30,056 nucleotides of DNA from a virus. The position numbers and the translations under genes are program-made. The notes below the pieces were generated by a model. It made no database searches, was not told the DNA's origin, and saw only the letters and a list, made by a program, of their open reading frames with translations. The stretch spans positions 1-30,056 of IMG/VR virus record IMGVR_UViG_3300020192_000061; one strand, 5' to 3'. Position 1 is the first letter of the stretch. Each line of letters opens with the position of its first letter. Below are positions 1 to 29,195 of the stretch, piece by piece.

Positions 1-68
1 TAATTCTTCTATATGGTTATATGTGTTATAGAAAACATATATAGCAGACAAAATCACTAGGAGAGAGT
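1..68 (+). promoter_or_regulatory. AT-rich upstream region with nested dyads
   Basis: This AT-rich stretch precedes the first plus-strand gene. It contains inverted repeats: ttctat at 7-12 pairs with atagaa at 28-33, and tatatg at 18-23 pairs with catata at 36-41. A Shine-Dalgarno sequence (aggagagag) lies just before the ATG at 69. No clean -35/-10 pair is visible, so the region may be an operator or a promoter of unknown type. Its segment 32-44 is nearly identical to 12741-12753. Confidence 0.35.
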
Positions 69-515
69 ATGTTGAAAAACCCGTACGATGCCCACCCCAC
101 TGTGGCGGTGCTGGCAGAAATAAAGAAACTTGAGCTTATGCTTGCAATGGAGGGCGTCCTTCTTGTCAAACAAGCGTTTGTCGTTGAAATTATGGAGGTG
201 CGCATAAAAAAGGCGCGTGAATCGCTAGCTAGCCGTTTTGACGGACCCGTCACGGCTGTGGTCGATGTTCGCAATAACATCAGTCAGCTCATGCTGGAAA
301 CGTACCACATCGTGGTTACAGACTACGCCCCGCGCGTTGGTGGACGGTGGATTCAGGGTGATGGTTATTACGTTGGGGTGAATCCTGACAGCCCGCTCCA
401 CACATGGCTATCGAATGCCCATCTTGATGATGACGTTGAGGCGTTCCTCATTGAGCTTCGTAACCGAAGCGTCGCAGTTGACTTGAACACCAAATTCTGG
501 GAAATTCCATTTTAG
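69..515 (+). CDS. hypothetical protein, 148 aa
   Basis: First gene of the plus-strand operon. The ATG follows an aggagagag ribosome binding site at good spacing. The N-terminal half (about residues 12-60) is rich in Leu, Glu, Lys and Met and is likely helical. The C-terminal half has mixed strand-like segments (ETYHIVVTDYAPRVGGRW, then EIPF at the end). There is no signal peptide or membrane segment. I do not recognise the family. It ends 9 bases before the next start, so the two are probably co-transcribed. Confidence 0.75.
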   Translation: MLKNPYDAHPTVAVLAEIKKLELMLAMEGVLLVKQAFVVEIMEVRIKKARESLASRFDGPVTAVVDVRNNISQLMLETYHIVVTDYAPRVGGRWIQGDGYYVGVNPDSPLHTWLSNAHLDDDVEAFLIELRNRSVAVDLNTKFWEIPF

Positions 516-536
516 GAGGCAACAATGGCAAACGAC
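513..536 (+). repeat. 24-bp translation-initiation repeat, copy 1
   Basis: The segment from the Shine-Dalgarno taggaggc through the first codons (Met-Ala-Asn-Asp) of the gene at 525 is identical over 24 bases to 850-873, which plays the same role for the gene at 862. The identity stops sharply on both sides. Confidence 0.9.
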
Positions 537-830
537 GACGGCAACAGTGAAATCTGGGACAAGTCCAATGTGTCTGTTGATGGGCATTGCGAAGGTGGCG
601 TTCCTACATTCTCGGTAAACAACACCAGTGAACGTGGCGGTGGTGACATGCAAGGCGCAGTAGAATATCGCGTCTTTGTGGATGGCACACAGCAGATTAC
701 TGGCACGTTGCAATTGTTGGGTGGCGAAACACGCAACTTTAGCTTCCCAGAATATGGGGTTGACCCAGTGCGTTTAGTGCGTTTAGAAGTAGACCAACGC
801 CCCGGACATCCCGGCGTCGGCGCGGAATAA
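525..830 (+). CDS. small secreted-type beta domain protein with VDQRPGHPG motif, 101 aa
   Basis: A single compact domain. The middle reads as a beta-sandwich (FSVNNTS, then AVEYRVFVDGTQ, GTLQLLGGETRNFSF) and the end carries RLVRLEVDQRPGHPG. From memory, domains with VTNTG...YRVY.DG...G.LQL..GES...LEVDQRPGHPG occur as C-terminal repeats of extracellular proteins, mainly in Chloroflexota. Here the domain stands alone, with no signal peptide and no partner domain, which is odd for a normally exported module. It could be a virion-surface or adhesion module, or a cytoplasmic protein recruited from the host. Strong aggaggc ribosome binding site 5 bases before the ATG. Function unknown. Confidence 0.75.
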   Translation: MANDDGNSEIWDKSNVSVDGHCEGGVPTFSVNNTSERGGGDMQGAVEYRVFVDGTQQITGTLQLLGGETRNFSFPEYGVDPVRLVRLEVDQRPGHPGVGAE

Positions 831-849
831 TTGTGTGAATATCAAATCA

Positions 850-873
850 TAGGAGGCAACAATGGCAAACGAC
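850..873 (+). repeat. 24-bp translation-initiation repeat, copy 2
   Basis: Exact copy of 513-536, again covering Shine-Dalgarno, start codon and the codons for Met-Ala-Asn-Asp. The downstream coding sequences of the two genes are otherwise unrelated, so the shared piece is the initiation cassette rather than a duplicated gene. Confidence 0.9.
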
Positions 874-1560
874 CGCTACACAATAGACCTGCAAGGGAAA
901 GAATATCGGCTAGTGGCGGGGCGCGTGTTAGATTTTAGACGCGCGCACCCAAATGGCGCAATCAAAACTGAAATGCTGATTGCTGATGGCGAGCGTTACA
1001 CATTCAAAGCCACCGTGATAAGCGGTGACGGTTGTGTTCTGGCAGTCGCGCATGGCGAATGCCTACGTTCAGAAGTTAAAGGCAAAGTGACCCCACTCGA
1101 AAAAGCCGAGACTAAGGCAATTGGTCGCGCGTTGGGGCTGGCTGGCTTCGGCACTGATGACATTAACGATGATGCGGACGGGGAACAGATTGCTGATTCC
1201 CCTATCGCCACTAAATCTAAATCTTCGCCACGCACCGACAAACCGACAGTTGCAGAAAATGCATCCTTTGAGGGCGAGCTATCCGACTTTTACCTGCACA
1301 CGGATAAACACGGCAAACCCCACTTGGCTTGTAGCGCAAGCTACGCTGGTGGCGCATCTAAGCTCATTCTGTTTCACCAAAAGGCGCACGCCTTTGGCAT
1401 CCCCGACGATGTTCGTGATGCAATCCTTCGCGGGGATGTGTACGCTGTACCCGGTGTGCCAGTTCTGGCAACCCTCGTAAAAAAGGGAGCCTTCGTCAAT
1501 TTTGACACAGTCCTCGTGGTCGGCGAAAACTGGCAAATCGTAGCGAAGGAGCGTGAATAG
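862..1560 (+). CDS. putative ssDNA-annealing/recombination-like protein (ETKAIGRAL motif), 232 aa
   Basis: The N-terminal domain (residues 1-100) has a strand-rich start (DRYTIDLQGKEYRLVAGRVL), a conserved HPNGAIKTE segment, a GHGE-like HGEC segment and the hallmark PLEKAETKAIGRALGLAGFG at 78-97. Phage and plasmid proteins with an EKAET.AIGRAL motif resemble Rad52/ERF-type single-strand annealing proteins, but exact family membership cannot be settled by eye. A charged linker (about 101-135) leads to a second domain (about 136-230, FEGELSDFYLHTDKHGKPHL ... VLVVGENW) that looks beta-rich and could be an OB-like or nucleic-acid-binding unit. The stop codon directly abuts the ATG of the actin-like gene, which implies translational coupling. 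Confidence 0.55.
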   Translation: MANDRYTIDLQGKEYRLVAGRVLDFRRAHPNGAIKTEMLIADGERYTFKATVISGDGCVLAVAHGECLRSEVKGKVTPLEKAETKAIGRALGLAGFGTDDINDDADGEQIADSPIATKSKSSPRTDKPTVAENASFEGELSDFYLHTDKHGKPHLACSASYAGGASKLILFHQKAHAFGIPDDVRDAILRGDVYAVPGVPVLATLVKKGAFVNFDTVLVVGENWQIVAKERE

Positions 1561-2649
1561 ATGGTCACCCCCATATCGGTCGATGCTGGAAACGCTGGGA
1601 CTAAAATCTCGGCGTTGGTTAACGGAAAGATTCACGACTATTTCATGCCGTCCTTCTGCGTCCCATTGACTCGTTCGCAGTGGGATAACGTGGTCGCACG
1701 GAGCGAGCAGACGGGGGATTATGCCGTTATCAATGGCATCCCGTTTGCGTTTGGCAGAACCGCCCTACAATATTCTCTAATTGGTACTCGTGATGTAGCC
1801 CGGTATACACGCGATTTTCTTGGAGCAATTCTCGCGTTCGGGTGCGCCCGATTAAAAGTGTCTGGGCAAATATCTGCAATGGTTCTGCATCCCCCACGCA
1901 ACATTGCGTTCCGTAAACAGATTTACAATGCGGTGTCGGGGGCGTTTGAGGTCGTCACTTATCACGGGCAAACCCGCAAATCACGCAAATCTAGCATCCA
2001 AGTGGGAGCCGTCACTACCTTAGATGAACCTTTGGGCGGGTTAACTCGCGCGATGCTCGGTGACAGTTGGTTAACCAACAAACCCGTACCCGACCCGCGA
2101 TTCAAGGGAATCAAGAATCTGCTGGTTATAGACGTGGGAGGGCATACTACCGATGGGGTGGGAATTGCAGACAACCATGTTATAGTCGAGAGTTTCGTGA
2201 GCGTCCCGCTGGGGGTGAATGGGTTGATGAACAGCGTTCGCGAGTACATCAACAATACTCAAAATGAACTCGTGACGATGGCAAATAATCCCCACTTTGA
2301 TGACGCGGTTCTGATGCAAGCGTTCCGCGACCGCTTTATCCAAATCGGTGGACACCAAATTGAGCTTGCCCCAAAATTGGTGGAACTATTTACCGCTCTA
2401 GCGAACAACGTATCTATGCTCATGAAGACGTCCGAATATGCGTCGTCGCAGGGCTTGGTGATAACGGGCGGTGGCGGTGCGCTTATTGAGTCATTTTTGA
2501 GAGTACAACATAAGCCGTTTTTCGGCAGCAACATCTTTCTCGCGGAAACCCCGAAAGACATGGCGTTCGCAAATGCACGTGGCGGGTTGGCAATCCTTGC
2601 CATGAGCCAAACTATGGGCAAGAATCGTAGGGGGGTCTCGAATGGCTAA
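1561..2649 (+). CDS. parM-like: ParM/Alp-type actin-like ATPase, 362 aa
   Basis: Actin-fold ATPase motifs are in the expected order. Phosphate-1 loop is DAGNAGTK at residues 8-15, phosphate-2 is IDVGGHTTDG at 190-199, and the adenosine loop is ITGGGG at 301-306. Length fits plasmid ParM/StbA and Alp proteins (about 320-370 aa). Family members form filaments that push or pull DNA molecules when bridged by an adaptor bound to a centromere. The small gene that follows with an 8-base overlap is the obvious adaptor candidate. The ribosome binding site aaggag lies inside the end of the preceding gene. MreB is excluded by length, motifs and context. Possible roles are stable inheritance of a plasmid prophage, or intracellular DNA transport as described for AlpC of the Corynebacterium prophage CGP3. 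Confidence 0.85.
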   Translation: MVTPISVDAGNAGTKISALVNGKIHDYFMPSFCVPLTRSQWDNVVARSEQTGDYAVINGIPFAFGRTALQYSLIGTRDVARYTRDFLGAILAFGCARLKVSGQISAMVLHPPRNIAFRKQIYNAVSGAFEVVTYHGQTRKSRKSSIQVGAVTTLDEPLGGLTRAMLGDSWLTNKPVPDPRFKGIKNLLVIDVGGHTTDGVGIADNHVIVESFVSVPLGVNGLMNSVREYINNTQNELVTMANNPHFDDAVLMQAFRDRFIQIGGHQIELAPKLVELFTALANNVSMLMKTSEYASSQGLVITGGGGALIESFLRVQHKPFFGSNIFLAETPKDMAFANARGGLAILAMSQTMGKNRRGVSNG

Positions 2650-3034
2650 AAACACACGCCACGTTCAGGCACAATTTAATCTGAAAAACCCCACCGAGCT
2701 AGTGGCTTTGGCGAACCTTGACGCGATGCTTGCGCAAGGCAAGGGCAATCGTGAGGTTATCACACTCGCGCTTTACAACCTGAACCCGTCTCAATATTCT
2801 GGTGGTGACCGTGAAATCGCTGATTATATTGTTGAGTCCACCGCATCAGCGGTACGCAAAATTTTAGAGAACACTCTGAAAGACCATACCGCCGAACTGC
2901 TGAAAGCGCTATCCGAACGCGGGTATCAAATTACCAACGAGCAGGGTTCGGCGGTTGATGACGGCGAGTTAAATGATTTTGCGGTTGATTTTCTAGAGTC
3001 TATGGGAGACCGGTTATATCAATTCGGGGAGTAG
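2642..3034 (+). CDS. ParR-like small adaptor candidate, 130 aa
   Basis: Starts inside the end of the actin-like gene, with an aggggg-type ribosome binding site. The N-terminus is basic (MAKNTRHVQAQFNLKN), then helices (PTELVALANLDAMLAQGKGNREVITLALYNL) that could form a ribbon-helix-helix or similar DNA-binding unit. The C-terminal half is acidic (EQGSAVDDGELNDFAVDFLESMGDRL). A basic DNA-binding N-terminus and an acidic C-terminal tail binding the filament is the usual ParR/AlpA design, and position after parM is typical. Sequence similarity to a named ParR family is not evident, so the assignment rests on context. Confidence 0.6.
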   Translation: MAKNTRHVQAQFNLKNPTELVALANLDAMLAQGKGNREVITLALYNLNPSQYSGGDREIADYIVESTASAVRKILENTLKDHTAELLKALSERGYQITNEQGSAVDDGELNDFAVDFLESMGDRLYQFGE

Positions 3035-3047
3035 CAAAAAAGTTTGA

Positions 3048-3065
3048 TGCCCCTATGACGGGGCA
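3048..3065 (+). other. small GC-rich hairpin after the parMR-like pair
   Basis: tgcccc at 3048-3053 and ggggca at 3060-3065 can pair around a six-base loop. It lies in the 107-bp gap between the ParR-like gene and the ASCH gene. No run of T follows on the plus strand, so a rho-independent terminator is unlikely. It may be an mRNA-processing or stabilising hairpin. The gap is also the only candidate place next to the cassette for a parC-like site, but no iterons are visible in it. Confidence 0.4.
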
Positions 3066-3141
3066 ATTGGGGTAAGAAAGTCACTCCAGCGCAACAATAC
3101 CCAAAATCAGTATACATCAAAAATGAGGAACGGAGAATACA

Positions 3142-3564
3142 ATGATATTTGAACACACGCAAAAAGTTCTAAGTGGGGAAACGACGCAAACATCGCGTTT
3201 GATTAAATCCGATACAGAGGCAGTGCTTGACGGGATTGCTATTGTATCGGTTATGCAAAACAATCGCTATCAATACCGCGTGGGCGCAACGTACCGAGTA
3301 CAACCCGCGCGCGGGCAGGGGGGCGTTCAACGGATTAGAATCGTGCAGATACAAAACCGTGATGTTCGCTATTTTGATGAGAGCGACATCGCCCGCGAGG
3401 GATTTGGTTCATACGACGAGTTTATCAAAGCGTGGGCAACCATGCACGACGTCGCACTCGTAAAAGGGTTTGACCTAACCGGCATAACGCCTGATTACCT
3501 GTACCAACGCCCGCATGACCGTTATCAAGCGTGGGTTTTAGTGTTTGAATTGGTGCGCTCATGA
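3142..3564 (+). CDS. ASCH/PUA-like domain protein, 140 aa
   Basis: The N-terminus MIFEHTQKVLSGETTQTSRLI matches the typical ASCH opening (a helix with K.I..G.KTQT.R). It is followed by the YRVGATYRVQPARGQ strand region, GGVQRIRIVQIQNRDVRYFDESDIAREGF, and a final strand WVLVFELV. ASCH domains are PUA-like folds thought to bind RNA or modified nucleotides and are frequent in phage accessory regions. The ATG follows an acggag ribosome binding site at about 7 bases. The last codons overlap the next start by four bases (ATGA), so translation is coupled. Confidence 0.8.
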   Translation: MIFEHTQKVLSGETTQTSRLIKSDTEAVLDGIAIVSVMQNNRYQYRVGATYRVQPARGQGGVQRIRIVQIQNRDVRYFDESDIAREGFGSYDEFIKAWATMHDVALVKGFDLTGITPDYLYQRPHDRYQAWVLVFELVRS

Positions 3565-3923
3565 TAAACATTAACGCGCTGGCAGAGACACCGCCAAAAT
3601 CTGCTACTTTGCTCTCCCCGCACATGGAGCGCATCAGCAACATTCACGACACCTACATGGCGCACTTCGGCATAGACGGCACACCGTTTCTGTGTAGCAT
3701 TAACAACAGCGTTGTTGTCGTGAACCATGTTACTTTGCGGTTGGTATTCCAAGACCGTTTTTACATCGTCCAACTTGGCGAGCTTCTAGACCACTCTGCT
3801 ATGAGTGAAAAGTTCTACGCTCATCTCAAAGGGAAGGAATTTCTCATACAGGGGTGGTCATTTTATTCCATCAATTTAGTAAATGTATCGCTGTTCGAAA
3901 ACAAGGAGAATGATGATGACTAA
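3561..3923 (+). CDS. hypothetical protein, 120 aa
   Basis: Starts by ATGA overlap with the ASCH gene. Mixed alpha/beta composition (FLCSINNSVVVVNHVTLRLVFQDRFYIVQLGEL in the middle, EFLIQGWSFYSINLVNVSLF near the end) and an acidic tail (ENKENDDD). No motifs, signal peptide or membrane segments that I recognise. Its tail overlaps the start of the next gene, so it belongs to the same polycistronic unit. Confidence 0.7.
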   Translation: MININALAETPPKSATLLSPHMERISNIHDTYMAHFGIDGTPFLCSINNSVVVVNHVTLRLVFQDRFYIVQLGELLDHSAMSEKFYAHLKGKEFLIQGWSFYSINLVNVSLFENKENDDD

Positions 3924-4548
3924 CTTGCAGTGGATGCTAGAACAAGAGGCTTATGGCTTCGCAGAACGCAAAGACATTGAAAGCGCAATAAAAATCGTGG
4001 ACATCCTAAAGGTGCTTGGCGTACCTGAAGAAGAAATTGCAGAACTAAGAAATAAAGTAGGGTTAACCTACCTGAAGCGTTGTAAAGAAGTCAAGTTTGG
4101 CATTGTTCCCCCGTATGCTTTGCACACCGCGACGGTAGACGCCGACGATGAACATGAAAGTGATGACAATCAATACATTGGGCTTAGTCCGTATGCGCTA
4201 CAGACATTTCAGGTGAGTAGACCTATCTATTATAAAGAACTTCGTAACAAGAAGGTACTCTTCCCACAAAACGGAAAGTGGTACTATGTGAGCCTCAAAG
4301 ACGGCGGGGACTACGGGGGGCGCGTTATACATGCGCATGATGGCGTGTATTGGGTGATTCCGTTCTTTAACCTTGAGAGAATCAAGATGCTAGCACAAGA
4401 GCATATTCGGGAACTTGGCGACGTAAATTCCCACGTTTGGGAACGACCAGAGAATTTTTGGACGAAACCGGCGGAATGCGAATACGTCCAGCATGTAGAA
4501 ACCAAACTAGCCGTAAAACACTACGGGTTGCCCTACGCTTCTTTTTAA
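3916..4548 (+). CDS. hypothetical protein, about 210 aa
   Basis: The frame is open from 3883. The best start is the third of three consecutive ATGs at 3910, 3913 and 3916, which sits about 7 bases after aaggag. The N-terminal part (NLQWMLEQEAYGFAERKDIESA ... VPEEEIAELRNKVG) is helical. The rest (from about residue 90) contains strand-rich and aromatic segments such as KWYYVSLKDGGDYGGRVIHAHDGVYWVIPFFNLERI. No family is recognised. It overlaps the preceding stop by 8 bases. An 84-bp gap follows with no visible feature other than the next ribosome binding site. Confidence 0.7.
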   Translation: MTNLQWMLEQEAYGFAERKDIESAIKIVDILKVLGVPEEEIAELRNKVGLTYLKRCKEVKFGIVPPYALHTATVDADDEHESDDNQYIGLSPYALQTFQVSRPIYYKELRNKKVLFPQNGKWYYVSLKDGGDYGGRVIHAHDGVYWVIPFFNLERIKMLAQEHIRELGDVNSHVWERPENFWTKPAECEYVQHVETKLAVKHYGLPYASF

Positions 4549-4632
4549 TTCCAACCCGAATAAGTGTGCCGAGCATCACATGAAACTGCTCAATTGACAA
4601 ATTATTGCCCGAATGGGCGGATGAGGAATACA

Positions 4633-4935
4633 ATGGACGCAAGCGAATTTTGTTTTGTGTGTGGAACACCGGGATTTTTCCCAGCAGAGGATAACCTACT
4701 CTGCCCCGATTGTACGCGCGTGCATGCGACGCAACCGGTAGATGATGAGCCTTACTTTGGCGAAGAAACAGACGCCATGTTTCCAGAGTTTCTTCATGAG
4801 TGCATGATGCACGGGGAGTTCAGTTCAGCGTACAGTTTTTTGTGTCCAGAGTGTCGTGCGCAGATGTTGGTGATGGCGATGGCGCAGACATTAACCCTTC
4901 GTCCAGCGTGGAGCTGTGGGTGCGCTTCACACTAA
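4633..4935 (+). CDS. small double zinc-ribbon protein, 100 aa
   Basis: The frame is open from 4564, but the supported start is the ATG at 4633 preceded by gagga. Two pairs of metal-binding motifs are visible: FCFVCGTPG with LLCPDCTRVH near the N-terminus, and FLCPECRAQM with SCGCAS at the C-terminus, giving eight likely Zn ligands (CxxC, CxxC, CxxC, CxC). Between them is an acidic stretch (VDDEPYFGEETDAMFPEF). Small zinc ribbons in phages often bind nucleic acid or host transcription proteins. No specific role can be assigned. Confidence 0.7.
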   Translation: MDASEFCFVCGTPGFFPAEDNLLCPDCTRVHATQPVDDEPYFGEETDAMFPEFLHECMMHGEFSSAYSFLCPECRAQMLVMAMAQTLTLRPAWSCGCASH

Positions 4936-5099
4936 ACGCGGTTGGGTGCGCGATGTTTGCGCCCCACATGGCAGAGCGTCCGATAGTTTCGCTAAGCGAC
5001 CTGAAAGATTTTGACGGCGCAGAGCTGACTTTCTTCGGCTTTAAGGTTTACACACTCGATTTAACCGACACATTAGTTTGCATTGGAGAGATGGAATGA
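4908..5099 (+). CDS. small hypothetical protein, about 63 aa
   Basis: A small frame between two zinc-ribbon genes, linked to the next gene by an ATGA overlap at 5096-5099. The start is uncertain: GTG at 4908 gives VELWVRFTLNAVGC..., and ATG at 4953 gives MFAPHMAERPIVSLSDL... with 48 residues. The C-terminal part (LTFFGFKVYTLDLTDTLVCIGEME) is strand-like. The frame extends upstream inside the previous gene, but that portion reads as out-of-frame sequence. Coupling to its neighbour is the main evidence that it is real. Confidence 0.5.
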   Translation: MELWVRFTLNAVGCAMFAPHMAERPIVSLSDLKDFDGAELTFFGFKVYTLDLTDTLVCIGEME

Positions 5100-5320
5100 C
5101 GATAAATGATGTGAAAGAAGCGCATGCGCGCGCAGTTGTACGTCGGAGCTTGGTCTACCCTGAAACTCTAACGTCATGGTGTCCGCGATGTGGGGTAATG
5201 ACCGACATTCCTCACAAAAAAACGGTGACGTTACGGAATAACATGCTCGTTCAGGCTTATGAGGGGCATTGCGGGTGTGGAACAGTTGTGACCGATTATC
5301 TATTTAGAGAGGATTCGTAA
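5096..5320 (+). CDS. small zinc-ribbon protein, 74 aa
   Basis: Start chosen at the ATGA overlap with the previous stop, with ggagag upstream, rather than the in-frame ATG at 5078. One zinc ribbon is visible: TSWCPRCGVM near residue 27 and GHCGCGTVV near residue 60, with strands between (KKTVTLRNNMLVQAYEG). The N-terminus is a charged helix (INDVKEAHARAVVRRS). This is the second zinc-ribbon gene in 700 bp, so the pair may act on the same process. Function unknown. Confidence 0.7.
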   Translation: MTINDVKEAHARAVVRRSLVYPETLTSWCPRCGVMTDIPHKKTVTLRNNMLVQAYEGHCGCGTVVTDYLFREDS

Positions 5321-5646
5321 TGAGCGATGACGCTATCCGCGTATTTTTACGCCAAGACAGAACCACCACGACACAGATAAACGAAGCCGTCGCTGTGACT
5401 AACACATCGTTATCGAGACAAACACCACCCATGTGGATTATGACCGTCGTAGGGTCAAACATCGGGGTGTATGTCGTACTGAAGAATAATGACATCCGCC
5501 CGCGACTTGATGAGGCGCATGAACTCGCAATCAACATCCTGAAAACGATGGGGATTACATCGGGCTATCGAAGACACTATAACGGCGGGGGATTGGTGTG
5601 TTATACTACACGAAAGTTCAGAAACATAGAGGACACTACAAAATGA
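5320..5646 (+). CDS. hypothetical protein, 108 aa
   Basis: The ATG shares one base with the preceding stop (TAATG), and its end overlaps the next start by four bases. A predicted alpha/beta protein: a helix (IRVFLRQDRTTTTQINEAVAV), strands (PPMWIMTVVGSNIGVYVVLKN), a helix (RLDEAHELAINILKTMGI), and a C-terminal basic segment (CYTTRKFRNIEDTTK). No recognised motif. Confidence 0.7.
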   Translation: MSDDAIRVFLRQDRTTTTQINEAVAVTNTSLSRQTPPMWIMTVVGSNIGVYVVLKNNDIRPRLDEAHELAINILKTMGITSGYRRHYNGGGLVCYTTRKFRNIEDTTK

Positions 5647-6065
5647 AACAGTTAAACGCAATCCAGCTTTTGATTCTATTGTTGTTTGTGATGCTATTCT
5701 CGTTTACGACCCTAGCACAAGACCCAACCCCCACCGCCGAAGGCGCGGTAGTTGGTGATAGTGACGTAGTGGTTATAGCCCCCGAAGAAGTCGCCAATGT
5801 TGAGGCGAGCGTTCTCACCTACATTCTCATGGCAGCCAGCGCGCTAATCGGTGTTTTGGTTGGTGGCGGTGGCGTGTTGGCAGTACTATCACGCGCCCGT
5901 AATGACGAGGCACTATTGACCGCATTGGAGGGGTTGGCTAAAAGCGTTCCGCCCGAATTGGCTGCGCGACTTTTAGAAGTTATCGAAAACATCAGCGTAG
6001 GTCTAGAAGTCGCTGAAGAAGTCTTAGACGACATTCCGTTTGCAGACAAGCCTCGCGACAACTAA
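5643..6065 (+). CDS. membrane protein with signal peptide and one TM, 140 aa
   Basis: Start set at 5643 (ATGA overlap, gagga upstream) although the frame is open from 5598. The N-terminus MKQLNAIQLLILLLFVMLFS is a typical signal peptide, with a likely cleavage at TLA-QD. A short Pro/Thr/acidic segment follows. A second hydrophobic helix lies at about residues 59-84 (LTYILMAASALIGVLVGGGG...). The C-terminal 50 residues are charged and helical (ELAARLLEVIENISVGLEVAEEVLDDI). Two hydrophobic segments in a small phage protein at an operon end would fit a holin or accessory lysis protein, but no endolysin is nearby and this is only a guess. Confidence 0.7.
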   Translation: MKQLNAIQLLILLLFVMLFSFTTLAQDPTPTAEGAVVGDSDVVVIAPEEVANVEASVLTYILMAASALIGVLVGGGGVLAVLSRARNDEALLTALEGLAKSVPPELAARLLEVIENISVGLEVAEEVLDDIPFADKPRDN

Positions 6066-6079
6066 CACGCAACAAAAAA

Positions 6080-6100
6080 AGCCCCCTAATTCAGGGGGCT
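6080..6100 (-). terminator. rho-independent terminator of the late operon
   Basis: Eight-base-pair stem (agccccct at 6080-6087 with agggggct at 6093-6100) with a five-base loop. Read on the minus strand it is followed directly by a run of seven T (complement of 6074-6080). The stop codon of the last late gene (6091-6093) lies within the loop and 3' arm, so termination begins inside the gene end. On the plus strand only a poor T-rich stretch follows, so it favours the minus-strand operon. Confidence 0.85.
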
Positions 6101-6711
6101 TCGGGGTCTTCTTCTGATGTACCTATCGCAATTGTAGGTCGTGGCATATTCGGATTAATCGCAACAGGTTTCACCATTCTTTCCTTCATGACACCGTTTA
6201 TTGTTTCAATCACCGCAATCCGAGCTTCTGTGAGTGCGTTTGTTAGGGTGCTGATAGCGTTCATCTGGTCATTGTTGACGGATTTCAATGCTGTGATACC
6301 CTCGTTAATGCTAGCTAGCGCGCTGATTAGCGGGTTCATTTCACCCCGTACGCTATCCTCAAACACATCAAATTTAGCAGTTAAAACTTGGAACTCTATT
6401 TTACGTTCCTCATCGCGATGTTTCGATACGGCGGTTTGCTCATCACGCCATTCTCGTATCTGCGCATTTAATCCTATTAGCGCATCAGTCTGTTGGGTGA
6501 TAACTCCGCCCTGCCTGTCTGCGATGACCATTGCCTTCGACACCATTTCCGCGCTTAGTTGGCTTGATAATTGCTGTGCGTTTGCGGATGCGTTCTGCGA
6601 GTCTGACACCCGCTTATTCATCAAAACGAATTGGCGTGTAAGCCAAACAATCACACCGATTAAGATGCTGATGATTCCTACCTGCTCAAGTGCTATCTGC
6701 TCAAGTTGCAT
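6091..6711 (-). CDS. N-terminally membrane-anchored coiled-coil protein, 206 aa
   Basis: The best start is the second Met (6711), which has gagggg about 7 bases upstream and overlaps the previous gene by 11 bases. A single transmembrane helix lies at about residues 10-27 (VGIISILIGVIVWLTRQ). The rest is largely alpha-helical coiled coil rich in Gln, Ser, Ala and Glu (about 30-180), ending in a Pro-rich tail. Last gene of the late operon, after the fibre. Candidate roles are an accessory lysis protein or an inner-membrane component acting late, but no family is recognised. Confidence 0.65.
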   Translation of the reverse strand: MQLEQIALEQVGIISILIGVIVWLTRQFVLMNKRVSDSQNASANAQQLSSQLSAEMVSKAMVIADRQGGVITQQTDALIGLNAQIREWRDEQTAVSKHRDEERKIEFQVLTAKFDVFEDSVRGEMNPLISALASINEGITALKSVNNDQMNAISTLTNALTEARIAVIETINGVMKERMVKPVAINPNMPRPTIAIGTSEEDPEAP

Positions 6712-20230: not shown

Positions 20231-21625
20231 CTAAATAGCGCGCACACCTGTAAGCACGGTAAATGCTTCTGGGTAATGGATGATAAAATCGCTGTAGGTG
20301 TATGCGATTACGCGCACTTGCAAACTGCCCATGAGCGATATGGCGTCTACCACAAGCTCAATGTCGTTGCTCATGACGTATTCGGCAAACCCAAATGTCC
20401 CAAAGTAGATTCGGCTCGTGCCTGAACTAGAACCGGTGGTAACTGTTTTGGTGAGCGCGGTGGATGTTAAAACAGGGTATCCAAGTACATCTTGATACGC
20501 TAGTTCACCATAGTTATTGCGAAGTAGGGGTTGCCCTACGGTGTCAGTCAAACTGCGCAATGTTCCTCTGTCACGAGGGTGCATCACAAATGCAGTCGTG
20601 TTGTTGGTTGGGATGTTGCCCTCTGCTAGCAATGTTTCCAATCCCACCAAATCTTGGTAGCTAGGTACACCACCATTTGCGCCAAGCGACTCAAGGTTGC
20701 CGGGCAGGCTATCGGTGAGGACTCTGAAAATGCCCTTTATTTCTTGACCCGTGCCACTGCCAACCGCACCCAAGCCTTCAAAGATTTCTTTGTCTACGGC
20801 TAGTTGGAGAGAGCGAATAAGCTGTGTGCGGATAATTTCTTCAACACGATATGGGCTTGTCTGCATCAATTGCATAGGGATAATTACTTGAGCAGCAATC
20901 GGGCGCAGTTGCGCGGTCACAGTGTCAAATTGAGCGTCACTAGAAACCACTGGGGTATTGATGCCGGGACGGTACGCTTCAGGAGCCGTTACCATTCTTG
21001 GCAAAACATACACCCCCGTGTTAGGAATCACCGTTTGCAGAACACCCGCTTGGAACGCTACGGATTCAGCACGCAATGGAGGCAGGATTTCGTCTGCCAT
21101 CGTTTGACCCACCATGACCCCACCAAGATTTCCGATGAGCGGGTTTTGCGCTTTGTTATAGGACTTATCGTGTATGCCCTTTACTAGGTGGGCGAAAGGA
21201 AAATCGCCACGTGCTGAAATTTGTGCTGGCGCGAGGCGGGTCTTCGCTACCGGTGCGCCCTTAACTGCGTTGCGTGCCGATTCCACCAACTTCACTTTGC
21301 GCTTCTCGCGTTCCGATTTAGCGAACTTGGCTACACTAGCGATAATCGCGTCCTGCTGTTTTACGATTGCTTTAGAAACGCGCTTAGCGTTTTCTTCTTC
21401 ATCGTCATCGACCATCTTGGTATCTTCAGCTACTTCGGCTAGTTGTTCTTCGATAGCGTCCGAAACTTCTTCCATTTCTTCGGGGCGTAAATCGTCCAGC
21501 ACGCTTTCAATGACGGCAACCATGTCCGCCTTCATTTGAGTTAAGACCTTAGCAACGTTGTCGCTATAGCCCATGCCCTTATCTTCTTCATCAATGGATG
21601 CATCATCCATCATCTTTTTTGCCAT
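20231..21625 (-). CDS. possible separate major capsid protein from internal start, 464 aa
   Basis: Inside the fusion frame, the ATG at 21625 (Met193 of the fusion) is preceded by agggagagaacaaa, one of the better ribosome binding sites in the operon. Translation from it would give a scaffold-plus-capsid protein of the usual HK97 length without the protease. This would let many capsid subunits be made for few protease copies. Whether it is used cannot be decided from sequence alone. Confidence 0.65.
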   Translation of the reverse strand: MAKKMMDDASIDEEDKGMGYSDNVAKVLTQMKADMVAVIESVLDDLRPEEMEEVSDAIEEQLAEVAEDTKMVDDDEEENAKRVSKAIVKQQDAIIASVAKFAKSEREKRKVKLVESARNAVKGAPVAKTRLAPAQISARGDFPFAHLVKGIHDKSYNKAQNPLIGNLGGVMVGQTMADEILPPLRAESVAFQAGVLQTVIPNTGVYVLPRMVTAPEAYRPGINTPVVSSDAQFDTVTAQLRPIAAQVIIPMQLMQTSPYRVEEIIRTQLIRSLQLAVDKEIFEGLGAVGSGTGQEIKGIFRVLTDSLPGNLESLGANGGVPSYQDLVGLETLLAEGNIPTNNTTAFVMHPRDRGTLRSLTDTVGQPLLRNNYGELAYQDVLGYPVLTSTALTKTVTTGSSSGTSRIYFGTFGFAEYVMSNDIELVVDAISLMGSLQVRVIAYTYSDFIIHYPEAFTVLTGVRAI

Positions 21626-22201
21626 TTTGTTCTCTCCCTGAGAATAGATAATTTGTGTGCCATTAGGTTCGGCTGGTTGGTACGTGACACTACCCTCTAC
21701 AATCACCCATTGTTCGATATGCCCTGTGGCATCGTCCCTCTTGACTGATTGCGGTAACGCCCCACTACTGAATTGAGCCTTGCCTGTGCTAAGCAACTTC
21801 TTGACTGCCTCACACGCAATTTCTGCGGTTCGGCGAATCTCCTCACTGCTCAACCCCTTGTAATTGATTTCGGAAAGCCACCGCTCATAGTCCTCACGGT
21901 CTGCTAGCTTCCCCTCTACCCACACGCCAACATCGTCAACCGATTCAAAATCAAAGACGCCAATCGGCAAAAGCCCGAAGTGGTCTTCTAACCCATGTTC
22001 TAACAGAATGGGTTTCCCTTTGATGGAATGCGATTTTAGCATGAACTGAGTATTGCTATTAAAATAGTCGCCGACTAGGTCGGTGTCACCTTCTTTTGTG
22101 AACCGTACCAAATAGCCACTAATGCGACCCGCGCCCAGAGTGTCGGATTTTATAAAATCCCCGACACGCTTTATTGTATCCATGTGTTTAGTGTGTTCCA
22201 T
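20231..22201 (-). CDS. prohead protease-major capsid protein fusion (HK97 type), 656 aa
   Basis: The start at 22201 has aagggggaacac directly upstream; the frame is open to 22228 inside the portal gene. Residues 1-190 are an HK97/U35-type prohead protease: GRISGYLVRF, the His-containing KPILLEHGLEDHFGLLPIGV (about 63-82), and the Ser-containing AQFSSGALPQSV (about 142-153). Residues about 193-340 form an acidic, helical scaffold-like region. The rest is an HK97-fold capsid protein (GNLGGVMVGQTMADEILPPL ... DKEIFEGLGAVGSGTGQEIKG ... FVMHPRDRGTLRSL). The protease presumably matures the shell by removing the scaffold region. No stop separates the two parts. Confidence 0.9.
   Translation of the reverse strand: MEHTKHMDTIKRVGDFIKSDTLGAGRISGYLVRFTKEGDTDLVGDYFNSNTQFMLKSHSIKGKPILLEHGLEDHFGLLPIGVFDFESVDDVGVWVEGKLADREDYERWLSEINYKGLSSEEIRRTAEIACEAVKKLLSTGKAQFSSGALPQSVKRDDATGHIEQWVIVEGSVTYQPAEPNGTQIIYSQGENKMAKKMMDDASIDEEDKGMGYSDNVAKVLTQMKADMVAVIESVLDDLRPEEMEEVSDAIEEQLAEVAEDTKMVDDDEEENAKRVSKAIVKQQDAIIASVAKFAKSEREKRKVKLVESARNAVKGAPVAKTRLAPAQISARGDFPFAHLVKGIHDKSYNKAQNPLIGNLGGVMVGQTMADEILPPLRAESVAFQAGVLQTVIPNTGVYVLPRMVTAPEAYRPGINTPVVSSDAQFDTVTAQLRPIAAQVIIPMQLMQTSPYRVEEIIRTQLIRSLQLAVDKEIFEGLGAVGSGTGQEIKGIFRVLTDSLPGNLESLGANGGVPSYQDLVGLETLLAEGNIPTNNTTAFVMHPRDRGTLRSLTDTVGQPLLRNNYGELAYQDVLGYPVLTSTALTKTVTTGSSSGTSRIYFGTFGFAEYVMSNDIELVVDAISLMGSLQVRVIAYTYSDFIIHYPEAFTVLTGVRAI
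21632..21639 (-). promoter_or_regulatory. internal ribosome binding site for the capsid part
   Basis: The minus strand reads agggagag about 6 bases before the in-frame ATG at 21625, within the protease-capsid fusion gene. The spacing is that of a normal Shine-Dalgarno site and it lies exactly at the protease/scaffold boundary. Confidence 0.6.
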
Positions 22202-22211
22202 GTGTTCCCCC

Positions 22212-24911
22212 TTACCCTGTGGGTACATTACCGAGACTGCCCGATGGCTTTCCTGATGCGCGCACTAGCTCACATTTGCAAGCCATTTTGCAGATGAGTT
22301 TTGACGACGTTGGGAACAAATCCTGTTTCCGCCACGCTTTCAGACGGTGGATTTGCCCTCGCAGGTAGTCGCACGATTCGCACGATTCCGCTGCGTTGGT
22401 GACCCACAGGTATAACCCATTCGTGTCAGCACTCTCGAGAGCCATGTAGTACGCGGGTTTGATTGACCCATCGAACCACAGCTGTGCTTTCTGCTTAGCT
22501 TCGTCATCACTGATGCCCTCTTTGAACAGCACCGATGTGAAGTTGCTCACAAATGCGGATTGGTCTTTGATGTGCGCGTCAATCGCGATAGTGTCCTCAT
22601 CATCTAGAGTGTCACCGTCAACACCACCCGCCATCAGCCCCTCACGATAAGCTCGGTAACTAAAGACGCGGATAAGCTGGCGTATGATGTCACCCGCTCT
22701 GCGTCGGTTGCTTATTCCACCCCCACGTATTTCCGCTAGCACAGGGCTGAACCGCGCCATCCAATCACCCTCAACACTCCCGATTGATTTCAGGGTCTCG
22801 TTGTCGTGGTCGTGTGGTTGCTCATCTAAAATAGATGCTAGGTACTCATCATCATTCAGCGCACGAAAGAAGTCCGATTTTAAGACCTCTAACGGGTCAC
22901 GGTTCAGAACTACTTTTAGCTCTTTCGCCGTTTCTATGAACGCCCCGTTACCGCCTGTCAAAAGACTAAGCTGTAAAGACTTCGCCATATACCCCGTGAG
23001 ATACTCTGGCTTAAATGTCAGCGCCTTCAAACGATTCGCGTTAACGATGTTCTCCCATGCCTTCAATTCGCGATAAGCCTTTTGCCTTCGCCACGTGGGT
23101 TGTGCTGATACCATGTTGTCGATGTTGTGGTTGTCGTCATGCTCATGGTCATGCTCATGGTCATGAGTGTGGTCGTGTTCATGGGGTGCTGTTTTCTCAT
23201 TGTCTGCCGTGTTCATTTGTGACACACGCGCACGCGCCCAACTGAAACCTACATCGCCACCCCACAATGCCCATGCAATTCGTCCGTTGCTAGGGTATCC
23301 CTTTTCACCCGGTGTAAACCCCTCACCCTTTTTGTCTACCTCATGACGACTAAAGTAGGAGAACATGCGCTTGACCGTGTCGGGTGCTAGTATTCGTTTG
23401 TTTGATATATCCCTCGCACGCGCTACGCCTATTCCCGTACCCCCGCGACCATATTCCCTACGCCACTCTAGTCCGCGTTTCGCTTCCTCTGCCATCGCAG
23501 AACTCGGCGTAAAATCAATCCGCGAGTAACGCACAGCTTTAGCATCGGATTCCATTCCTTCGTCAAGCGGTTCGTCTAGTTCAGGCGGTGGAATGCCAGC
23601 CAGCATTTCTACTGATGGCACGAGGAACTGATGCTCCCAAATGTTCGGTAGTTGCTCAATAGGTATCGGTGTCCCACTGACTAGCAGAACGTCCCCATTA
23701 TCCAGCGGTTCATACCCCGATTGTTGACGCGCTTGGTTCAGGGTGATTAGCCCTGCCTGATACGCATTGATTGCGTTGGATTGTAGCGTTTGCTCCTGTG
23801 CGCTGATGACCTCAAATGCCCGCATGTTAAACGAGAAGTAAGTGCTTGGGTTCGGGTCAAAGTGTGGCAGGATGCAATGGTTTACAAATTCCTCTATCCG
23901 TTGCAATATTGGGTATACCGTACCGAGATAAAAGCGCTTGGTAACTTCGTCCCCATCTTTGTATGTGGTGCTGACAGAAGAATCACCTGCCATAGATGCT
24001 GGCACGCCAAACGCTGCATATATCTCTCGCGTGATTGGGTCGTTGGTGTCGTATATTTTCCCCACATCTGGCATGTCAAATGTCTCAACATTCGCAGAGA
24101 ATGGGAACACCCCTGTAGTAAACTGATTGCCCGAACCTTTGAAGAACCGTTGCAAGTTATCGTTAATCGCGCGCATCTGCTCGTTCGTCCACATCGTCTT
24201 ATCGTTCGGTGGTGATATGAGCGTGGTCGGTCTAGCGTTATTGATGAAGAAGTCGCGCATGAATCGCTGAAGGTTGCGCGCTATGTTGATTGCGTTCAAC
24301 GCACTAAGGATACGACTATTCCCACGCGTCTGGTCGAATGGGTTGAACTCAAATGAGTGAGCGAAGTCTCCCAGCTCTAACCGTACCATACTACCCGTGT
24401 TGACTGGGGTGTACTCTATCGCTAAAACAGTTTCACCCTCACGGATAACGCGAACCCGTAACGGGTTTAGCCAACGCAATCCGACAGCGCGTTTGTTATC
24501 GTCTCTGATAATCTCTACGAAAATCTCGCCGTAGATGTCTAACCCCAAAACCAACGCCTTGATGAAGTTGATGCCATCGTCATGAACGTGCCGTCGCATC
24601 GCGCGTGTCAGCGGGTAGTTGTCAAACCGATTTGCGCTTGTGCTAATCAGTTCCTCGTCATCCCCATCGCTAGATGTTGTGATGCGCCTAATCTCGTAAT
24701 CAAGACTCGCAACCGCATTAGAGCGAAGGTCGATTGACCGCTGTACCGCTACAATGTGTTGATACGCCGTAGCATATCCCGCTTTGTCTTCGCTGATGTC
24801 AGCGTTCTCATACGTTAGCCCACCATTCAGAAACGGCTGGAAAAAACTGTCAGTCCCGATAGACTTGGTGGGGCTTTTATTCGGTTGTAAAAGTCGCTTA
24901 AAAAATCCCAT
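22212..24911 (-). CDS. portal protein fused to MuF-like head morphogenesis domain, 899 aa
   Basis: Residues 1 to about 430 are an HK97-type portal (GFFKRLLQP, IVAVQRSIDLRSNAVASL, DIYGEIFVEI, TREIYAAFGVPASMAGD, LQRIEEFVNHCILPHFD). A compact domain at about 468-562 (EEAKRGLEWRREYGRGGTGI, DTVKRMFSYFSRHEVDK, GRIAWALWGGDVG) is one I associate with phage capsid-assembly proteins. A His/Asp-rich linker follows at 577-597. The C-terminal 300 residues resemble MuF/SPP1 gp7-type minor head domains, ending with conserved cysteines C844, C847, C874, C878 and C880 and the DYLRGQIHRLKAW motif. Portal-MuF fusions occur in some phages; the His-rich linker is unusual. Confidence 0.85.
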   Translation of the reverse strand: MGFFKRLLQPNKSPTKSIGTDSFFQPFLNGGLTYENADISEDKAGYATAYQHIVAVQRSIDLRSNAVASLDYEIRRITTSSDGDDEELISTSANRFDNYPLTRAMRRHVHDDGINFIKALVLGLDIYGEIFVEIIRDDNKRAVGLRWLNPLRVRVIREGETVLAIEYTPVNTGSMVRLELGDFAHSFEFNPFDQTRGNSRILSALNAINIARNLQRFMRDFFINNARPTTLISPPNDKTMWTNEQMRAINDNLQRFFKGSGNQFTTGVFPFSANVETFDMPDVGKIYDTNDPITREIYAAFGVPASMAGDSSVSTTYKDGDEVTKRFYLGTVYPILQRIEEFVNHCILPHFDPNPSTYFSFNMRAFEVISAQEQTLQSNAINAYQAGLITLNQARQQSGYEPLDNGDVLLVSGTPIPIEQLPNIWEHQFLVPSVEMLAGIPPPELDEPLDEGMESDAKAVRYSRIDFTPSSAMAEEAKRGLEWRREYGRGGTGIGVARARDISNKRILAPDTVKRMFSYFSRHEVDKKGEGFTPGEKGYPSNGRIAWALWGGDVGFSWARARVSQMNTADNEKTAPHEHDHTHDHEHDHEHDDNHNIDNMVSAQPTWRRQKAYRELKAWENIVNANRLKALTFKPEYLTGYMAKSLQLSLLTGGNGAFIETAKELKVVLNRDPLEVLKSDFFRALNDDEYLASILDEQPHDHDNETLKSIGSVEGDWMARFSPVLAEIRGGGISNRRRAGDIIRQLIRVFSYRAYREGLMAGGVDGDTLDDEDTIAIDAHIKDQSAFVSNFTSVLFKEGISDDEAKQKAQLWFDGSIKPAYYMALESADTNGLYLWVTNAAESCESCDYLRGQIHRLKAWRKQDLFPTSSKLICKMACKCELVRASGKPSGSLGNVPTG
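23137..23165 (-). repeat. 12-bp tandem repeat encoding the His/Asp-rich linker
   Basis: The unit tcatgctcatgg (plus strand) occurs twice in tandem at 23137-23148 and 23149-23160, with a partial third copy. It encodes His-Glu-His-Asp-type repeats of the portal linker (residues 577-597). Slippage at this repeat could change the linker length in steps of four residues without breaking the frame. Confidence 0.8.
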
Positions 24912-27096: not shown

Positions 27097-27840
27097 TCAT
27101 AGTAGCTTTGGCTGTCTAGGTTTCAATTTTGCACCCCCACCTACCTGATAAAGGTTTTCAGTGTAGCGCCCCGTTTTGAGGGTACTCATTGCCTTTTGAA
27201 GATTGAACTGGTGAATTGGTTCACCCACCCATTCGGGCGCGGAAAGTTCAGAGATAAAAACGATGTTGTTGCATGCCCATAATTTCACCTGCTCCCAAAA
27301 AGCATCGCTGTCGAACCCATCTCTTTCGTTGACGCGATATTTTTGGGTAGTGTCCCTGTAGGGTGGGTCGCAATAGATAACAGCGTCCTTTACGTTAGCC
27401 CAATGCGTATAAGAACACTCGAAGAAGTTCATGCGTTTCAGAAACGGCTTCTTTTTCATTATGCCATTAAACCCTTCAAGGGCATAGTTTCTTCCCCCCT
27501 TTTTATCACGTGCATATCCGTTCCAATAAGCCCCCGCGAAGCTACACGAATGGCTTACGAAAGCCACCATCTCCTTAGGGTAAGCACCGGGGGTCTTTCG
27601 TATTGTCTTATACGTTTCTTCACTTACATCTATGGGGGGTTGCCAACCGTTCTGCACCGCTCGCCACATGCTAATCATATACTCGTCCACATCCGACATT
27701 GTCTTGTATTCTGCATTGACCTTGCACCCGACACTCAAAGCCCCACAAAATGGTTCTAAGTAGGGGAAAGTCCCGATGACGCGGTTAATGTAGTCGGCTA
27801 TTTCCTTTGCGTTCCTTGCCTTGCCACCGGGATACTGCAT
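27097..27840 (-). CDS. D12-class N6-adenine DNA methyltransferase, 247 aa
   Basis: N-terminal QYPGGKAR (residues 2-9) and LEPFCGALSVGC (28-39) form the AdoMet-binding start. SDVDEYMISMWRAV (49-62) is the acidic-loop motif, and CDPPYRDT with DPPY at 158-161 is the catalytic motif of amino-methyltransferases. Order PGGK, EPFxG, DPPY and length match the Dam/M.DpnII-type D12 family. The family often methylates GATC, but this window contains no GATC, so the target may differ or may lie elsewhere. No restriction enzyme is adjacent. It is 42 bp downstream of the cytosine methyltransferase gene. Confidence 0.9.
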   Translation of the reverse strand: MQYPGGKARNAKEIADYINRVIGTFPYLEPFCGALSVGCKVNAEYKTMSDVDEYMISMWRAVQNGWQPPIDVSEETYKTIRKTPGAYPKEMVAFVSHSCSFAGAYWNGYARDKKGGRNYALEGFNGIMKKKPFLKRMNFFECSYTHWANVKDAVIYCDPPYRDTTQKYRVNERDGFDSDAFWEQVKLWACNNIVFISELSAPEWVGEPIHQFNLQKAMSTLKTGRYTENLYQVGGGAKLKPRQPKLL

Positions 27841-27882
27841 TTTAACACCCTTCTGAACATAGCTAGCAACAGCGTGACGGTT

Positions 27883-29166
27883 TCATGTTAGGGATTCCAT
27901 CACGCGATGACCAATCCATTCCGCTACATTAGGCGTGACGGCATTGCCAATTTGACGCACTTGGTCTTGACGACTACCGAGTATGATGTAATCAGAGGGG
28001 AACGACATCCCGCGCTTTAATTCCTCTGGGTTGAGCATTCTAAATGAACACCCCTCTAGCAAATCGTTTTCGCTGGGTGCGAACGGTGGCGGTTGTACAA
28101 GCGCGTGCTTCGCTACTGTGGTGAGCGTAGGCAGAGCGTTAGCGACATCGGTATGCGTAGCGTTGCCATAATAGCTCGAGATAAACGAAGGGGTAGCCAA
28201 CCCGTGCTGACTAGAACTGTGCGCGCTACTTTCCGAAGCTGGCATAGCGAGACCCATTCCGTTGAAAGTGGTTATCGTGTGCAAACTCTCACTCACAGGA
28301 CGCGCTGGACCATCCCCATTAGCGTACGGGATAATAACAGGAACCGCAAATTTGCGTAACCCGGCGCGGATTCTTTGGATTGTGCGCTCTATAAGGGGTC
28401 GGGTGCGATTGCTAAGTAATTCGCCTTTAATCGACCAGTCAATCACCGTTGAGGCGGGGGCATGCGCTGGAGTGACTTCGCTAGCGCAGTGGGGGCAACG
28501 CCAAACATATTGCCCGTTTTTGCCATAACGCCCCCACATCTCTGGGCGTTTCCATGCCTGTACGGATTCAATTGTCCCGTGTTTCTGGCAATGCCCGTCG
28601 GGTCTGTAATCTAGGTTCGGGGCTTTAATGCCCTTCCGCCAAAAAACTGCGTAATACCTATCGCGCGATTGTGCTACATTAAAGAATTTGCTGTTGGCAT
28701 ATATCACGCGCCCCTCATAGCCTAAATCAATTATGGAATGCCACCACGCATCATAGTGTTGCCAGTGCCTAACGTCCACGACATTCTCTACAATCACCAC
28801 ATCGTAACGGTGATATTCAGTGAACTGCACAACTTCCCGCATTGTTGCGCGAGAGCGTTCCTCTGATGGGTCAACGTCCGTATTACCCCACAAATCAAGT
28901 TGATTTATGTTTTTGCGCTTACGCCCTCCCGCGATTGAGTGATTAGTACACTCTGGGGAGAACCATGCTACGTCTACGCGCGGATACCGGCTAGGGTGCG
29001 CTTGCTGAAGGTCATCAAGAAAATGAGCGGTGTCGGGGTGATTCGTGTTGTGCGTTTCAATAGCGATAGCCCAGTGATTCACAGCTGCACGCACTTCGAA
29101 CCCTGCCCGAACAAGCCCAGTGCTAGACCCTCCTGCCCCGCAGAAAAAATCAATCGCTGTTGGCAT
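27883..29166 (-). CDS. C5-cytosine DNA methyltransferase, 427 aa
   Basis: Start at the ATG at 29166 with gaggagg 6 bases upstream. Motif I is DFFCGAGGSSTGL (residues 6-18). Motif IV is SPECTNHS with catalytic C73, the SPEC variant seen in phage enzymes rather than PPCQ. Motif VI is VENV (126-129) and motif VIII is QSRDR (166-170). A possible zinc site uses C193, C224 and C227. Motif IX-like SESLHTIT and ANALPTLTT precede motif X GNAVTPNVAEW near the end. All catalytic elements are intact. Likely protects phage DNA from host restriction. Confidence 0.9.
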   Translation of the reverse strand: MPTAIDFFCGAGGSSTGLVRAGFEVRAAVNHWAIAIETHNTNHPDTAHFLDDLQQAHPSRYPRVDVAWFSPECTNHSIAGGRKRKNINQLDLWGNTDVDPSEERSRATMREVVQFTEYHRYDVVIVENVVDVRHWQHYDAWWHSIIDLGYEGRVIYANSKFFNVAQSRDRYYAVFWRKGIKAPNLDYRPDGHCQKHGTIESVQAWKRPEMWGRYGKNGQYVWRCPHCASEVTPAHAPASTVIDWSIKGELLSNRTRPLIERTIQRIRAGLRKFAVPVIIPYANGDGPARPVSESLHTITTFNGMGLAMPASESSAHSSSQHGLATPSFISSYYGNATHTDVANALPTLTTVAKHALVQPPPFAPSENDLLEGCSFRMLNPEELKRGMSFPSDYIILGSRQDQVRQIGNAVTPNVAEWIGHRVMESLT

Positions 29167-29195
29167 CGTCAGCCTCCTCAAAAATACACGCCATC

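Follow-up and report, generated by a model that had tools for sequence, protein, structure and literature searches.

A ParM-like actin gene and its small downstream partner in an uncultured phage fragment probably derived from a virus of Chloroflexota

A gene for a ParM-like actin, followed by a small overlapping gene, lies close to the left end of an uncultured phage fragment. The locus raises the question of whether the two genes form a DNA-moving cassette and what such a cassette says about the life of the phage. The first-pass annotation of this DNA had read them as an actin with a ParR-like adaptor, and had suggested from them either a phage-plasmid lifestyle or a cytoskeletal system of DNA transport.

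The record and its two gene blocks

The window, that is, the whole stretch of DNA analyzed here, is an IMG/VR virus record of 30,056 bp consisting of a single linear contig. No end repeats were found on it, and its right end cuts through a gene. Its genes form two convergent blocks that meet at a terminator-like hairpin (6078..6102). From 30,056 to 6,091, the minus strand encodes the packaging and structural proteins (small and large terminase, portal, major capsid protein, and tail fibre); from 69 to 6,065, the plus strand carries about a dozen genes, most of them without an assigned function, and the actin and its partner are among these. The search for tRNA genes and Rfam families in the record gave none. 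The scanned genes of the window included no recognized integrase, replication initiator, or helicase, and no resolvase was recognized in the fragment. Most of the best 80 loci related to the terminase were labelled Anaerolineae, Chloroflexi, or Aggregatilineales; since Chloroflexota genomes dominate this terminase group, the host of the phage probably belongs to that phylum.

Several other genes of the record have features of their own. The major capsid protein (20231-22228, minus strand, 665 aa) has a capsid domain restricted to residues 369-660, and its architecture suggests a protease-capsid fusion; no close relatives of it were found in viral contigs. The portal protein (22212-24911, minus strand, 899 aa) has an additional C-terminal part and matches phrog_2859 at residues 456-587, and a stretch of 104 of its residues is 50% identical in two viral loci (L012 and L013). 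Two adjacent DNA methyltransferases, one N6-adenine (D12) and one C5-cytosine, are encoded upstream of the terminase genes (27097-29181, minus strand). In the plus-strand block, a small protein (4633-4935) has cysteine pairs resembling a zinc ribbon (Pfam DZR_2, 2.5e-6). An exact 24-nt duplicate, TAGGAGGCAACAATGGCAAACGAC, occurs at 513-536 and 850-873. At each place it spans a ribosome site and the initial codons of a gene; the two genes are otherwise dissimilar, and the duplicate looks like a copied gene start.

The actin, its neighbours, and the DNA around them

The actin gene (1561..2649, plus strand) starts with ATG and encodes a protein of 362 aa, which family profiles and nucleotide-binding motifs identify as a ParM-like actin-family ATPase. 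The first-pass annotation had reported complete ATP motifs, and all five are indeed present: phosphate-1 (VDAGNAGTK, at residue 7), connect-1 (LDEPLGG, 154), phosphate-2 (VIDVGGHTTD, 189), adenosine (VITGGGGAL, 300), and connect-2 (FANARGG, 336). In connect-1 the window protein has E156 at a position where its relatives have Q. The best family match was phrog_691, annotated "partition protein" (E = 4.4e-14, residues 3-342), and the second-best full-length match was NCBIfam TIGR03739 (PRTRC_D), which aligned end to end at 1.1e-5. Pfam MreB-like_C matched at 7.6e-6 with 27.0 bits, slightly under its cut-off of 27.8. A profile made from 37 other ParM-like actins, with the window sequence left out, matched the protein at 5.5e-27 and found no other frame in the window. 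When a profile of the window actin and four relatives was compared with ParM proteins of solved structure, it matched those of pSK41 (3js6) at 5.6e-38, pCBH at 3e-28, and R1 at 1.7e-7. These profile matches place the protein in the actin superfamily far beyond chance, and over its full length it belongs to the ParM-like group of phages and plasmids. Readings of the gene as MreB, FtsA, or Hsp70 were rejected because partition-type families score far better against it.

Within this group the protein is divergent. Identity to the relatives compared was about 20-28%, and in the tree its end branch measured 4.3 changes per column, with at most 22% identity to the other rows and no supported placement near any group. 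Searches of viral contigs, phages, plasmids, and the sampled Chloroflexota genomes gave no close relative. A first scan of the genome collection with the actin gave no match, and degenerate patterns made from it recovered distant loci only.

The gene upstream (862..1560, plus strand) ends with its TAG directly before the actin ATG and contains the AAGGAG ribosome site of the actin gene. Its product matches phrog_11717 (1.9e-13), a family of unknown function, and tblastn gave matches of up to 3e-9. The homologues are proteins of Thermus P23-45-type and Lactobacillus delbrueckii Ld17-type phages; for the Thermus phages, three records carry the annotation "ssDNA binding protein" and others call the protein hypothetical, and genes for a helicase, a Holliday junction resolvase, and SSB are their neighbours in those phages. 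An annealing protein, as had been proposed for this product, is possible. No close relatives of the gene were found in viral contigs.

Downstream, the partner gene (2642..3034, plus strand, 130 aa) shares 8 nt (ATGGCTAA) with the end of the actin gene and is served by a G-rich ribosome site of its own. The overlap described in the first-pass annotation stands, as does the direct adjacency of the preceding gene to the actin, but its naming of the partner as a ParR-like adaptor was not confirmed. Searches of Pfam, PHROGs, NCBIfam, and PDB gave the partner no significant match, including to any DNA-binding family, and comparisons with a profile of the partners from other phages and Chloroflexota were negative with both HMMER (hmmsearch) and hhalign. 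When its first 60 residues were fitted end to end to this partner profile in an anchored test, the score was 3.8, whereas shuffled sequences averaged -6.9 and 12 of 1000 shuffles did as well as the real sequence. One further gene of the window outscored it, and known partners scored 17-61, except that of phiT1 (3.1). This fit to the other partners is only suggestive. By eye, the N-terminus can be read as strand-helix-helix (HVQAQFNLK / NPTELVALANLDAML / GNREVITLALYNL), and the C-terminal tail DFAVDFLESMGDRLYQFGE, which finishes in VDFLESMGDRLYQFGE, is like the acidic/hydrophobic tails of other partners. AlphaFold models of the partner by itself and of the actin together with a single distant relative had pLDDT values of 47 and 34; they were unusable and weigh neither for nor against an adaptor role. 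We regard the partner as a candidate DNA-binding adaptor, ParR-like by position and size, on the basis of gene context with weak sequence support. Close relatives of it were found neither in viral contigs nor in 396 genomes of the class to which an Anaerolineae bacterium of our collection (G004) belongs.

In agreement with the first-pass annotation, searches of 1-6100 and of the whole window for centromere-like repeats (direct, inverted, or tandem repeats, or clustered k-mers) gave none. The intergenic stretch behind the two genes (3035..3141) has a short hairpin and no repeated k-mers, and the AT-rich contig end before the first gene (1..68) has an imperfect TATATGTGT repeat at 10-30. The record begins at base 1, so a promoter or centromere farther left would be cut off, and a centromere may be located beyond its ends.

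The two-gene order in known systems

In eight of the nine inspected phages with this actin family (API480, BboS-125, phiT1, Troll, phage G, Yucatan, Moorella MTATph1, and Bobb), the gene that follows the actin is small and adjoins or overlaps it. The exception was Vibrio phage 150E35-1, in which the gene after the actin is not of this kind. The pair was also found on the Aneurinibacillus plasmid pAT1, at one IMG/VR locus (L005), and at many Chloroflexota loci, with somewhat larger gaps in places. The small gene is nearly always on the same strand as the actin and overlaps it or lies a few bases away. By eye, most of the other partners have a short strand and two helices at the N-terminus, which is the ribbon-helix-helix pattern, and many have an acidic C-terminus that finishes in hydrophobic residues. 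ParM-like genes paired with ribbon-helix-helix genes have been described in Bacillus phages (PMC8026635). Because the same pairing occurs in eight of nine phages and at many Chloroflexota loci, the cassette is of a known kind, and the window actin is a divergent addition to it.

The phages with phrog_691 actins (Troll, Bobb, Yucatan, phage G, Moorella MTATph1, Paenibacillus API480, and Bacillus vB_BboS-125) share the actin family and the gene order with the window; most also have the overlap, which is likewise of 8 nt in phage G and API480. The window partner, in contrast, is longer than most of theirs and could not be aligned with them confidently, and the probable host phylum is Chloroflexota here and Bacillota there.

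With the ParMRC plasmids (pSK41 ParM, 3js6; R1 ParM, 1mwk) the locus shares the superfamily and a motor-first layout of two genes, the small one directly downstream of the actin. It differs from them in that it is phage-borne, no homology of the partner to ParR could be demonstrated, and the window has no parC repeats near the operon. Since the fold of the adaptor is not established and no centromere was found, we assign the actin alone, by its sequence, to the ParM-like family and do not classify the whole locus as ParMRC.

The AlpAC system of the Corynebacterium prophage CGP3 also joins a phage-encoded actin to an adaptor gene, although in the window the adaptor is a candidate. In CGP3 the adaptor gene is co-transcribed and first in order, 24 alpS repeats are present, and the function is an early one (PMC4446434). 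The window locus is motor-first and no repeats were found in it, whereas AlpAC is adaptor-first with repeats in its promoter; the window locus does not match that arrangement. It does not match a PRTRC system either: the actin scored 24.5 bits against a family cut-off of 214.8 for protein D, and no other PRTRC genes were recognized among the window genes scanned.

Function of the cassette and lifestyle of the phage

We think it probable that the two genes, which stand in the usual motor-first order, form a DNA-moving actin/adaptor cassette of the ParMR kind. The segregation-type cassette of the first-pass annotation is retained as a class, on the strength of the actin and the gene order, but not in its identification of the adaptor. 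Most likely, the two-gene machine positions or partitions extrachromosomal phage DNA. From its intact motifs and its family, the actin is expected to bind ATP and polymerize; the N-terminal part of the partner would bind a site on the phage DNA and its C-terminal part the filament. Because the cassette lies in the plus-strand, non-structural block directly behind a gene related to phage genes annotated as ssDNA-binding, it would act on free, replicating phage DNA and would position or separate the genome copies inside the cell, much like AlpAC in the case of CGP3. Stabilization of a plasmid prophage could be an additional or alternative role.

How far this action extends beyond the productive cycle is where the readings differ. 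It is a substantial possibility, although not one that we would favour, that the filaments serve the productive cycle only and carry replicating genomes to a site of replication or packaging, with no plasmid state. The same actin family and adjacent small gene occur in Herelleviridae (Troll, Bobb, and Yucatan) and in phage G, AlpC and AlpA are required for efficient replication of CGP3 (PMC4446434), and the upstream gene is like the phage genes annotated as ssDNA-binding. On the other hand, the gene order of AlpAC is reversed and its alpS repeats are clear, while no such repeats were found in the window, and Bp8p-C, a phage of broadly this type, is listed with a plasmid prophage (PMC8026635).

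A lysogen maintained as a circular plasmid, with the cassette as its par locus and the centromere beyond the fragment, seems somewhat unlikely. The Bacillus phages IEBH, B83, and Bp8p-C, which have ParM-like proteins with ribbon-helix-helix or HTH adaptors, are listed as such plasmid prophages (PMC8026635, PMC6669507), and the absence of a recognized integrase from the scanned genes is in keeping with it. However, the fragment, which is incomplete, shows no replication initiator, resolvase, or centromere, the cassette stands in a convergent block of early type and not beside a replicon, and the presence of ParM-like partition genes is not by itself sufficient to show that a phage replicates as a plasmid (PMC8026635). 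The phage-plasmid lifestyle proposed in the first-pass annotation does not follow from the cassette, because phages such as the Herelleviridae and phage G carry the same one. That annotation had also called it unusual that no replication initiator adjoins the pair, and this was overstated: the pair stands apart from a replication initiator in other phages too, as in Moorella phage MTATph1, where it lies behind a DNA helicase. In the linear 30,056-bp fragment, which lacks the replication region, neither an initiator nor an integrase was recognized among the genes scanned, and both the plasmid reading and the productive-cycle reading are compatible with this.

It is improbable that the actin does a job without DNA (on host MreB, in cell shape, or in virion assembly) with the small protein as a filament cofactor: its very long branch, the partner's lack of an established fold, and the absence of a visible DNA site in the window would fit, but its closest profile family is the partition-type ParM group and not MreB or FtsA, and partners elsewhere resemble, by eye, DNA-binding ribbon-helix-helix proteins. 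More doubtful still is that the pair represents a separate branch of Chloroflexota-phage actin cytoskeletons, with an adaptor outside the ribbon-helix-helix type and a DNA site built from something other than repeats.

Read as a DNA-moving cassette of the ParMR kind, the locus adds a probable Chloroflexota phage to those that encode ParM-like actin cassettes. Because such cassettes are common to plasmid prophages and to phages with no known plasmid state, a partition-like actin should not be taken to prove a phage-plasmid lifestyle. Many actin/partner pairs were also present in the sampled Chloroflexota genomes, some of which hold several ParM-like actins. Similar small proteins (KFLHFTVGLLKDSEALE...) were observed behind the ParM-like actins of the Chloroflexota loci L109, L110, L112, L113, L118-L121, L123, L125, and L126.
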